Origin: an uncultured Caulobacterales bacterium
GTDB lineage: Bacteria; Pseudomonadota; Alphaproteobacteria; Caulobacterales; Maricaulaceae
Direction of reading: 5' to 3'
Length of the DNA: 64,000 nt
Assembly (NCBI GenBank): GCA_937929915.1
Contig: CALFUN010000027.1
Location: forward strand, 1 to 64,000
The notes beneath the pieces were generated by a model, which was not told where the DNA came from, made no database searches, and saw nothing but the letters and a program-made list of their open reading frames with translations. The translations under genes and the position numbers were made by a program. Position 1 is the first letter of the stretch, and each line of letters opens with the position of its first letter. Below are positions 36,195 through 39,095 of the stretch, one piece after another.

Positions 36195-36683
36195 TTAAGA
36201 GGGATAAATCATCGTCACAGGCACGATTGCGCCATATGTTTCAACTTTAATTTTAACCTCATCAAAGGTTGGACGGCGCTCGGTTGTGACCTGCCCTGAG
36301 GCGCCCCACCCATCTGTAATGGTATAGGTTTCATCCATAGAAAACACACCGTCATTATCTAAATCATGCCAAACCGACACAGCATATTCGCCAGCTTCGC
36401 GCACACTCACTGTCATTGTCATCGATTTATCTGTAACAGCTTTAACCACGCCGCCATGCCCATGAATACCCATATATTCAGCCCGTTTTTGGATCGACAC
36501 ATAAATGGGCGCGCGGCTAATATGCAGGCCTTTTAAGTCTATAGTGACAGGAATTGTTGCGACATCGGCATCATTGACCTTATCTGTATTATAGGGGCCA
36601 GCAACAGCAATGGTGGCACCCAAAGCTGTCATCGTAGTAAATATCAGACCCATTTTTCGTTTATTTTTCATTCGTACAAACAT
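36195..36683 (-). CDS. Secreted DUF2141 protein
   Basis: A 162-residue protein with an N-terminal signal peptide (basic start, hydrophobic core to about residue 28, cleavage near AVAG). The mature part resembles DUF2141: a beta-sandwich with a calcium-loop-like HDLDNDGVFSMDE near residue 106. The function is unknown. AAGGAG lies 6 bases upstream of the first ATG, fixing the start. It is divergent from a membrane protein-regulator operon, and both promoters lie in a spacer with two palindromic operators, so both are probably controlled by that regulator. Confidence 0.78.
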   Translation of the reverse strand: MFVRMKNKRKMGLIFTTMTALGATIAVAGPYNTDKVNDADVATIPVTIDLKGLHISRAPIYVSIQKRAEYMGIHGHGGVVKAVTDKSMTMTVSVREAGEYAVSVWHDLDNDGVFSMDETYTITDGWGASGQVTTERRPTFDEVKIKVETYGAIVPVTMIYPS

Positions 36684-36702
36684 ATTCGTCTCCTTTTCAA
36701 TT

Positions 36703-36748
36703 AAGTTTGTATTTCAAACTTGACACAATTAAGTTTGTAATACAAACT
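36703..36748. promoter_or_regulatory. Twin palindromic operators flanking a TTGACA
   Basis: AAGTTTG-TATTT-CAAACTT (36703-36721) and AGTTTGTA-A-TACAAACT (36732-36748) are two perfect palindromes with the same half-site (AGTTTG/CAAACT). Their centres are 28 bases apart. TTGACA, a consensus -35, lies at 36720-36725 between them. The spacer separates the DUF2141 gene from an operon encoding a winged-helix regulator, the likely binder. Confidence 0.75.
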
Positions 36749-36792
36749 AATTTTAAATAAATATTGTAATTCTCACACAAACGGAGATCTAT

Positions 36793-37425
36793 ATGTCAGA
36801 ACGCTCTATTAAAAATGATGCCCTAAACGACCTAGATTATATTAAAAGTCTTGCAGAAGCTGGCGCAAATACGCCGCTTTTGGGCGGGCGCATAGGTTTG
36901 ATGTGGAGTTGCCTGTTAATTCCAACTTTATTCATTCACGGCTTGATACTCATGCAGTTCATCAAAATCCCTTTCAATTATATTGGATTCATTTGGATGA
37001 CATTTGGTATTTTAGGCGGGATATTAACATTTACATTAGGCAAATCATTAGACAAAAAACCAGGTGCATTTTCATCTATAAACCGAACAGAACAAGCGAC
37101 ATGGACAGCGACAACTATATCCATGTTTGGTTTCGCAATCAGTATCACGATTAGCGTTGTAATTATGCAAAAGCCCTATTGGTTATATGATATTATTTTA
37201 GCCTTCGCTTTTGGAACATATGTTATAAATTATTATGTCCTTGCAAATTTAGGCGGCCAGAAACGGCTTTATTTACCCGCAATCCTTGCTTTTATTTTGA
37301 TGGTCATTATCGTTATAAATCTTGGTAATCCCATTATATATATTATAGCGGCCATTGGCGTTATATTTACAGCCGTAATCCCTTCACTGATTAGCCTAAA
37401 ATATGAGCCAAAAGATGTCATCTGA
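36793..37425 (+). CDS. Unrecognised six-helix membrane protein, operon with a regulator gene
   Basis: A 210-residue membrane protein of unknown function, AT-richer than its neighbours. A soluble 30-residue N-terminus precedes about six hydrophobic segments (roughly residues 35-58, 62-85, 108-128, 132-152, 158-178 and 182-202). A GGAG site 7-8 bases upstream supports the ATG. Its 3' end overlaps the winged-helix regulator gene, so the two are coupled. The palindromic operators lie in its promoter region, suggesting that the regulator controls it. Confidence 0.75.
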   Translation: MSERSIKNDALNDLDYIKSLAEAGANTPLLGGRIGLMWSCLLIPTLFIHGLILMQFIKIPFNYIGFIWMTFGILGGILTFTLGKSLDKKPGAFSSINRTEQATWTATTISMFGFAISITISVVIMQKPYWLYDIILAFAFGTYVINYYVLANLGGQKRLYLPAILAFILMVIIVINLGNPIIYIIAAIGVIFTAVIPSLISLKYEPKDVI

Positions 37426-37726
37426 TCCATTATTAAATTTAGAGGCGATTGATGATGTCATTCACGGACGATTACGTCTGGGTGTCATGGCCTATCTTTC
37501 AGCCGCAAACTGCGCAAGCTTTCCAGAATTACTCTCGAAAACAGGCGCAAGTAATGGCAATCTGTCAACGCATCTAACCAAGCTAGAAAACGCAGGATAT
37601 ATACGCCAAGAAAAAGGGTATAAGGGCAAACGTCCGCAAACTTTGATACATCTCACAGATCACGGACGAAACGCATGGATCGCATATTTAAGCGCTATGC
37701 AAGCCATATTGAAACCCACCGATTAA
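37403..37726 (+). CDS. Winged-helix transcriptional regulator (MarR/ArsR-like)
   Basis: A 107-residue DNA-binding protein. The helix-turn-helix is at about residues 38-62 (FPELLSKTGASNGNLSTHLTK), followed by a wing with YIRQEKGYKGKRPQTLIHLT, as in transcriptional regulators of the PF13601 type. It should bind as a dimer, consistent with the palindromes at 36703-36748. The ATG at 37403 is used; a second ATG at 37415 is also possible. It overlaps the preceding membrane-protein gene by 23 (or 11) bases. Confidence 0.85.
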   Translation: MSQKMSSDPLLNLEAIDDVIHGRLRLGVMAYLSAANCASFPELLSKTGASNGNLSTHLTKLENAGYIRQEKGYKGKRPQTLIHLTDHGRNAWIAYLSAMQAILKPTD

Positions 37727-37814
37727 TATTAATAGGAGATATTAAAAACGGCCCTACCTGACCTGATATTTTACTGCATAAACTTGGTGATTGAGAATAT
37801 TTTAACCCTCATCA

Positions 37815-37847
37815 TTAAGCGTTGCTTAAAGCACGCTACCTAGATTC
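37815..37847 (+). promoter_or_regulatory. CtrA box and GANTC site upstream of the TadG-like gene
   Basis: TTAA at 37815-37818 and TTAA at 37826-37829 have the exact 7-base spacing of a CtrA box. A GATTC at 37843-37847 is a possible CcrM methylation site. Both lie within 75 bases of the TadG-like gene start. In Caulobacter, pilus genes are driven by CtrA, so cell-cycle timing of this gene is plausible. Confidence 0.65.
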
Positions 37848-37886
37848 CATAGATGATTTGAACGCTTATCTTCGGATATAGATTGA

Positions 37887-39095
37887 ATGAGTTGGAATAA
37901 AATGCTCAAAAGATTTACCCAAAATGACTCTGGCAATATAGCGATTACAGGCGCGATTGTCATCGTAACACTTTTAACAGCTATTGGCACTGCGATTGAT
38001 ATATCCACTGTGATTTCGCGCAAAACAAGTCTGCAAGATGCCAATGACGCCGCCACATTAGCCGCCGCAAAATTTGATTTTGAAAACACAGCAACGGCCA
38101 GTGCAAATAGTTTAGATCTATTCAATCTCAACCAAGACACATCTCAATTAGAAAATACGCAATTTAATCTTAGCTTTGATGAGGATAAAATTACTGGCAT
38201 CGCAACTGCAGATTACCCGTTATTTTTTGCCCGCATATTACCGCAAGCCAAAATCCAAATTCAGGTCAAAACAGTTGTTGCGAAAAATACACCTCAATAT
38301 GTGACATGTATTAAATCCCTTAACGCATCGGCACAATCTAGTTTTCGCGTGAATGGCGGCGCGAATATTATAGCGCCAGACTGTCAAATAGACGTAGATT
38401 CTGTGGCAGCACCAGCGGCAGATTTCAACTCTGGCGTGACATTAAATGTGGCCCGAGCCTGCGTAGCAGGTACTAATATTATAAATCAATTAGGCTTGCC
38501 GAATATCATCAAAACAGATTGCGAGGTCAATCCAGATCCCTATTTCGGCCAATTTCCAATCCCAGATGATACATGCCGTTATAACTCGCAAACCTATAAT
38601 GAGAGACAGGTAGATTTAGATCCAGGCGTTTATTGCGGCAGTTTTAATTTTGGCCCGCAAATTGAAACCGTCAGATTTGCTCCGGGGCTTTATGTGTTAA
38701 AAGACGGGACTTGGACGGTTGATTCTGGCCTATGGGAAGGTGATGGTGTCACCTTTTACTTTATGGATCAAAGCTCTGGCATTCAATTCAACTCGGGAAT
38801 TGCAGCGCGAATGACACCCCCAACATCTGGGCCTTATAAAGATGTCTTTATCACAGAAGCGCCCAATACCCAGCCATCAAATTTTGTCATGAATGATGCT
38901 AAAGGGTTTGACTTTGAAGGCATTATTTATTTGCCAAACAGGCAGTTAATTATGAATAGCGGAGCCACAATACGCTCACGCCGTCTCAGCCTCGTCGCAG
39001 ATAGATTAATTATCAATGATGCAAATTTAAACATTCAGCCCCTATCTGGCGGCGTAGAGAGCCAGCCTGAATTTCAAGCCTATATCACCGAATAA
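37887..39095 (+). CDS. TadE/TadG-like pilus-assembly protein
   Basis: A 402-residue protein. The N-terminus has the Tad signature: a short basic stretch, then NIAITGAIVIVTLLTAIGTAID as a single membrane helix and LQDANDAATLAAA. The remainder is an extracytoplasmic, beta-rich domain with several cysteines, perhaps binding or covering pilus components. TadG/TadE proteins belong to tight-adherence pilus systems, but no other tad/cpa gene is in the window. It stands behind a CtrA box. A second ATG at 37902 is possible. A terminator for the opposite strand follows. Confidence 0.8.
   Translation: MSWNKMLKRFTQNDSGNIAITGAIVIVTLLTAIGTAIDISTVISRKTSLQDANDAATLAAAKFDFENTATASANSLDLFNLNQDTSQLENTQFNLSFDEDKITGIATADYPLFFARILPQAKIQIQVKTVVAKNTPQYVTCIKSLNASAQSSFRVNGGANIIAPDCQIDVDSVAAPAADFNSGVTLNVARACVAGTNIINQLGLPNIIKTDCEVNPDPYFGQFPIPDDTCRYNSQTYNERQVDLDPGVYCGSFNFGPQIETVRFAPGLYVLKDGTWTVDSGLWEGDGVTFYFMDQSSGIQFNSGIAARMTPPTSGPYKDVFITEAPNTQPSNFVMNDAKGFDFEGIIYLPNRQLIMNSGATIRSRRLSLVADRLIINDANLNIQPLSGGVESQPEFQAYITE

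Follow-up and report, generated by a model that had tools for sequence, protein, structure and literature searches.

The DNA stretch analysed here (64,000 nucleotides; hereafter, the window) raises the question of which protein would bind two palindromes of shared half-site that lie in a short spacer between divergently arranged genes, and what their pairing would serve. Comparison with relatives reveals conserved sites, a conserved operon, a twin layout of the sites and covariation between a regulator residue and a half-site base. On this basis, we consider it likely that both palindromes are operators of the HTH_34 regulator encoded in the adjacent small operon of this marine bacterium, whose dimers would block RNA polymerase at both promoters and whose residue 51 would set the second base of the half-site. 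The operator pair itself is real and conserved, and very probably autoregulatory. The features of the locus are as follows.

36195–36683, minus strand: DUF2141 protein (PF09912) with a signal-peptide-like N-terminus (by eye); putative regulated gene
36704–36720, DUF2141-proximal side: predicted distal operator AGTTTG-N5-CAAACT, AGTTTGTATTTCAAACT (exact match, with matching sites in relatives)
36720–36725, plus strand: TTGACA at the edge of the distal operator, a likely −35 element (the motif follows the distal site in relatives)
36732–36748, membrane-protein-gene side: predicted proximal operator AGTTTGTAATACAAACT (exact match, with matching sites in relatives)
36793–37425, plus strand: 210-aa membrane protein with an N-terminal helix and six long helices, without a Pfam family
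37403–37726, plus strand: HTH_34 winged-helix regulator (PF13601), 107 aa, with N51 opening the recognition helix; predicted binder of both operators

The preliminary description of this DNA had placed two perfect AGTTTG half-site palindromes, 28 bp from centre to centre, around TTGACA in a divergent spacer between a secreted-type DUF2141 gene and a membrane protein–winged-helix operon. Both palindromes and the hexamer are present at that spacing, and profile matches reproduce the gene layout. The spacer extends from the DUF2141 gene to the membrane-protein gene (36684–36792), the palindrome centres are at 36712 and 36740, and the first T of TTGACA is also the last base of the distal operator. 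The word ‘perfect’ holds for the proximal site, in which all eight pairs are symmetric around a single central base, but for the distal site it is true only of the arms (6 bp, or 7 bp including the flanking A/T), because the 5-bp middle is partly asymmetric. The pattern AGTTTG-N2..6-CAAACT matches the window twice (vs. 0.01 expected), and none of 100 dinucleotide shuffles gave two matches; when the spacer, which is AT-rich, was shuffled by mononucleotides, a pair of 6-5-6 palindromes of any sequence appeared 56 times in 20,000. A half-site-like GTTTGTA was also seen by eye within the first codons of the DUF2141 gene (ATGTTTGTA, 36675–36683), where no left (second) arm is present, and ACAAACAT stretches resembling ATGTTTGTA recur in relatives.

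The regulator matches PF13601 (HTH_34) over the entire profile (positions 1–80 of 80; 88.3 bits, gathering cut-off 27) and is the sole PF13601 match in its genome. Its scores lie under the cut-offs for PadR (PF03551: 19.9 vs. 27 bits), MarR (PF01047: 19.5 vs. 24.6 bits), and ArsR/SmtB (NCBIfam HTH_metalloreg: 25.1 vs. 55 bits), and barely above those of Pfam HTH_5 (25.4, cut-off 22) and HTH_24 (24.2, cut-off 21.9), both far under the HTH_34 score. In the structural model (mean pLDDT 89.5), residue 51 is the first of a helix spanning 51–63, and Foldseek gives PH1061 and MarR-like proteins as the best PDB matches, with DNA-bound structures among them. A link to anti-phage systems was rejected, with weak winged-helix matches only (best, Csa3, E 1.5e-5). 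The membrane-protein gene overlaps the regulator gene by 23 bp, and the modelled protein (pLDDT 95.3) has seven helices, of which the six long ones are predicted to cross the membrane. The window protein has no Pfam family at E 0.01, DUF1700 was found neither in it nor in 23 aligned members, and one of the 23 has a weak SirB match. No convincing structural counterpart was found for it in the PDB (Foldseek best E 0.8), and TMEM45A, the top row of VIA-align (Z 11.2, rmsd 4.1, 175 aligned), falls short of the score expected for helical bundles (about 13). The DUF2141 assignment is well above its gathering cut-off (47.7 vs. 24.4 bits); a second DUF2141 gene in the same genome sits on a different contig, one without an exact operator site. 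The predicted membrane protein and the exported-looking DUF2141 protein would together make this an ‘envelope module’, as the locus had been called. Downstream of the operon, the window encodes a TadE/G-like protein (PF13400, a pilus-assembly type of family; 37887–39095).

We then compared how the palindrome is distributed. In the genome assembly of the window (2.49 Mb in 39 contigs, 91.7% complete), exact AGTTTG-N5-CAAACT has two matches, both in this spacer, and the palindrome is not scattered across the genome; the check that the preliminary description had proposed thus speaks for its reading. The N3–N5 form has four matches genome-wide, two of them in this spacer, compared to three for a reversed control pattern. 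With up to two mismatches, 96 matches were found vs. 135 for the reversed control; near matches show no excess over the control, and therefore no broader regulon is visible in this genome by this pattern. Across 60 genomes of the window’s family, the operon head holds 27 of the 31 exact sites, spread over 21 genomes, and the reversed control has 18 matches in the same genomes; six exact sites in genomes of other families fall off the operon (the 27 of 31, 18 and six being hand counts from listings).

The operon is conserved more widely. Of 100 relatives (the window’s own genome included), 74 have a match to the regulator and 69 to the membrane protein, and the regulator was found order-wide in 222 of 299 genomes (E ≤ 1e-12) and, using an alignment as query, in 16 of 289 genomes of a class-wide draw (E ≤ 1e-10). 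When 80 loci were picked by the regulator alone, the membrane-protein gene was directly upstream in 79, and the sole exception begins 125 bp from a contig end. More distant operons carry ACTTTG-N5-CAAAGT in place of the AGTTTG sites (hereafter, AC and AG classes). Around the AC-class loci, where 50 of 72 listed ORFs were tested against Pfam (28 of 37 downstream, 22 of 35 upstream), no Pfam family occurred in more than three of the 50 neighbour ORFs. Neighbours other than the membrane protein and the regulator differ among relatives, and the module looks self-contained, as had been suggested. In one locus (L104 of genome G026, 1562–2909), the membrane-protein gene stands in two tandem copies ahead of the regulator.

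To relate the two operator classes to the regulator, sites were scored in the frame xNTTTG-N5-CAAANx, with base 2 unconstrained, in 145 distinct loci (168 before removal of near copies; L058, a second view of L104, had been dropped beforehand). In this discovery set, the AC class accompanies D51 (66 loci) and the AG class accompanies N51 (39 loci), H51 (3 loci), and G51 (1 locus), with no discordant case among the 109 classifiable loci. The 36 unclassifiable loci comprise 33 without a site by the rule, two N51 loci with mixed A/G arms, and one D51 locus with an unread base; 25 of the 33 siteless loci have D51, and 14 of these carry ACTTTA-N5-TAAAGT near the membrane-protein gene. A second set of 40 loci was hand-picked among the matches listed, before the sites were read, three being chosen because other loci of the same genus carried N51 or G51. 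It gave 29 D51/C and two G51/G loci, no discordant case, eight siteless loci, and one C-type locus whose residue 51 was unread. Without the four loci that repeat discovery DNA (L234–L237), the remaining 36 comprise 26 D51/C, two G51/G, seven without a site, and one with the residue unread, such that 28 of 28 scorable loci are concordant, many of the second-set loci sharing their genus with discovery loci. L138, an H51 locus from the discovery set, was called ‘A’ in the second scoring through a tie with AATTTATTACATAAATT and also carries AGTTTGAATTACAAACT. Residue 59 was rejected as a specificity residue, since T, R, K, and S were each found with both operator classes.

In the best tree (109 rows), three residue-class changes are matched by three operator-class changes, only one of the three co-changes being forced by well-supported branches. 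An AU test on 85 rows is compatible with the non-D class having arisen once (p-AU 0.383). The residue–operator match could come from few evolutionary events. The comparison nevertheless supports covariation of residue 51 with half-site base 2, which ties the putative operators to the operon’s own regulator. Distant D51 HTH_34 proteins beside another membrane protein (L207, L209, and L212) also have ACTTTG-type sites upstream, about 640–655 bp away and ahead of the preceding gene. The search that yielded these three covered 19 loci and found eight with a site by the rule (imperfect in L202 and L210) and 11 without. In L207, L209, L210, and L212, from other families of the class, HTH_34 is preceded by a different but mutually similar membrane-protein gene, and the upstream copy in L207 has no Pfam match. 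Eight loci (L125, L132, L137, L142, L143, L147, L149, and L150) have an N-type module with AGTTTG-type sites on contigs labelled Porticoccaceae, SAR92, or Gammaproteobacteria, reflecting either between-class transfer or misbinned contigs.

Of the 48 loci with N, H, or G at residue 51, upstream sequence reaches 700 bp or more in 41, and sites were scored in these allowing up to two mismatches. Two sites are present in each of the 15 loci where DUF2141 is divergent vs. nine of the 26 remaining loci (Fisher p = 3e-5, uncorrected for relatedness), and it is probable that the second site arrived together with the divergent DUF2141 gene or serves it. The second site also persists in loci where DUF2141 was not found, and the operators could instead autoregulate the membrane-protein/regulator pair only, with DUF2141 as a bystander. 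This alternative draws on four loci that kept two sites with no DUF2141 gene found at the locus or upstream (G012, G016, G007, and G002) and on the many loci entirely without DUF2141; against it stand the 15 of 15 loci above, together with L076 and L078, where DUF2141 immediately precedes the membrane-protein gene in the same orientation and has imperfect AG-type sites ahead of it. We regard the bystander role as unlikely. G001 has only a degraded proximal site left, and because of this single site and the four twin-site loci that lack DUF2141, one operator per promoter is not a strict rule.

The spacing between twin sites varies. In 26 twin loci, it is 28 bp (16 loci), 38 bp (4), 46 bp (3), and 27, 39, or 40 bp (one each). 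The preliminary description had argued that 28 bp, near 2.7 helical turns, would place two dimers on related faces of the helix; this argument fails because the spacing differs among twin loci, and 28 bp corresponds to 2.67 turns, with the dyads offset by some two-thirds of a turn, hence on different faces. Helical phasing was accordingly rejected as the cause of the 28-bp spacing, given values of 27–28, 38–40, and 46 bp. In L043, L046, and L049, an extra membrane-protein-like gene, reaching up to about 680 bp ahead of the usual membrane-protein gene, separates the twin sites from the latter, and the sites stay at the operon head by DUF2141, about 670–711 bp before the usual gene. The first 57 aa of the extra gene in L043 have a weak DUF7010 match (E 0.035).

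Promoter geometry differs between the two operator classes. In the AC class, for which the pool includes the four repeated loci (L234–L237), 62 of 104 loci have TTGAC starting 23–26 bp ahead of the operator, such that the preceding base plus ACTTT of the left half-site forms a putative −10 element, with a spacer of 16–19 bp after TTGACN (17 bp in 41 loci); T precedes the site in 76 of 105. In the AG class, relative to the scored operator, TTGAC starts 12 bp before in 12 of 42 loci, right after in five, and 30 bp before in three. Among loci with 28-bp spacing, 12 of 17 have TTGAC abutting the end of the distal site, as do all three 46-bp loci examined; the other five 28-bp loci read TAGAC (4) or TTTAC (1) at that place, and TTGAC follows the distal site in none of five loci with 38- or 40-bp spacing. 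The spacer of the window gave no sigma-70 promoter in a two-hexamer scan and no good −10 element 16–18 bp past TTGACA. The hexamer that had been called a consensus −35 is a likely −35 element, with TTGAC also present in most 28-bp relatives, but a recognisable −10 partner is missing here. Because of this, we infer the overlap of operator and promoter in the window from its relatives.

This geometry also bears on a possible activating or dual role of the regulator, with the distal site upstream of TTGACA recruiting polymerase and the proximal site repressing. In most of the 28-bp loci and in the three 46-bp ones, TTGAC begins where the distal operator stops, an activator-like position for the site, and the failure of the scan to find a good −10 element in the window fits activation as well. 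However, the single operator of the AC class often itself forms the putative −10 element, fitting occlusion, and many single-site loci exist in the AG class too. We therefore hold activation to be improbable, at roughly the level of an outside chance.

It is very improbable that another, unlinked regulator binds the palindromes and that their proximity to the operon is incidental. Chromosomal regulators are able to act at a distance, but the sites accompany the operon and occur hardly elsewhere in the 60 family genomes, the half-site tracks residue 51 of the linked protein, and AG sites travel with the module in the Gammaproteobacteria-labelled contigs. Although inverted repeats are able to fold, RNA stem-loops or terminators in place of protein-binding DNA are more improbable still, given that no terminator-like site was found in 36600–37900, that both half-sites change along with a residue of the predicted DNA-binding helix, and that the AC-class site often overlaps a putative −10 element and thus would not be transcribed whole.

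Under autorepression by the linked regulator, the reading we prefer, a regulator dimer on each palindrome would exclude RNA polymerase. The proximal site would cover the promoter of the membrane-protein/regulator operon, resulting in negative autoregulation, and the distal site would cover the DUF2141 start region and abut the TTGACA of the operon. Recognition-helix residue 51 would set half-site base 2, with N here for AGTTTG and D elsewhere for ACTTTG. Binding, dimerisation, and repression by the regulator are predictions from sequence comparison; our reading is steric autorepression with roughly one operator per divergent promoter. The co-encoded membrane protein may sense a signal or antagonise the regulator, and is the natural candidate for this role, being the only partner seen to stay constant among neighbours that otherwise vary. 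More tentatively, the locus may represent a widespread one-component module of alphaproteobacteria, in which the six-helix protein sequesters or releases the HTH_34 repressor on an envelope signal, specificity switched through D51 to N/H/G51 plus one base, and the duplicated operator of the N-type clade recruited DUF2141 as output; we think this possible, but doubtful as a whole.

Palindromic operators and control of the neighbouring gene are typical of the MarR family. MarR regulators on DNA (AbfR, 5hlg; MftR, 8ylg) have a winged-helix fold similar to that of the window regulator (Foldseek), whereas the latter is below the MarR Pfam cut-off and shorter (107 aa) than the MarR chains among the matches listed. 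The closest solved relative is PH1061 of Pyrococcus horikoshii (PDB 1ub9; sequence E 3.9e-8, Foldseek E 2.9e-6, TM 0.78), which differs in being archaeal and is titled in its entry as a transcriptional regulator homologue; no account of its DNA site was found in the literature, among the matches listed. An autorepressor with a membrane partner is already a known kind of system. The closest parallel is described in passages of a paper on Listeria monocytogenes (PMC6624303), where the operon lltR–DUF1700 membrane protein–DUF4097 exoprotein encodes LltR, a PadR-type regulator that represses its own gene and also controls the genes of the membrane protein and the exoprotein. In both systems, a small winged-helix-type regulator is accompanied by a multi-spanning membrane protein and by an exported or exported-looking one. 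Unlike LltR, the window regulator is under the PadR cut-off and falls in PF13601, its membrane protein is without DUF1700 or another Pfam match, its exported-looking gene is the divergent DUF2141, and its autorepression is predicted from comparison.

Among the matches listed, with few subscription journals covered, we found no published account of the family, its operators, the residue-51 rule, or the DUF2141 link, and no literature on HTH_34/PF13601 by those names was found at the same coverage. For the small regulators of PF13601, an operator and a partner are thereby predicted, together with a putative one-residue specificity rule, and a residue-for-base switch moving together with its operator would be a compact natural case of regulator–operator co-evolution. 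DUF2141, a family of unknown function, becomes tied to a candidate regulator. In a passage of a study of Sphingomonadales, DUF2141 was noted beside crtG (PMC5989583).
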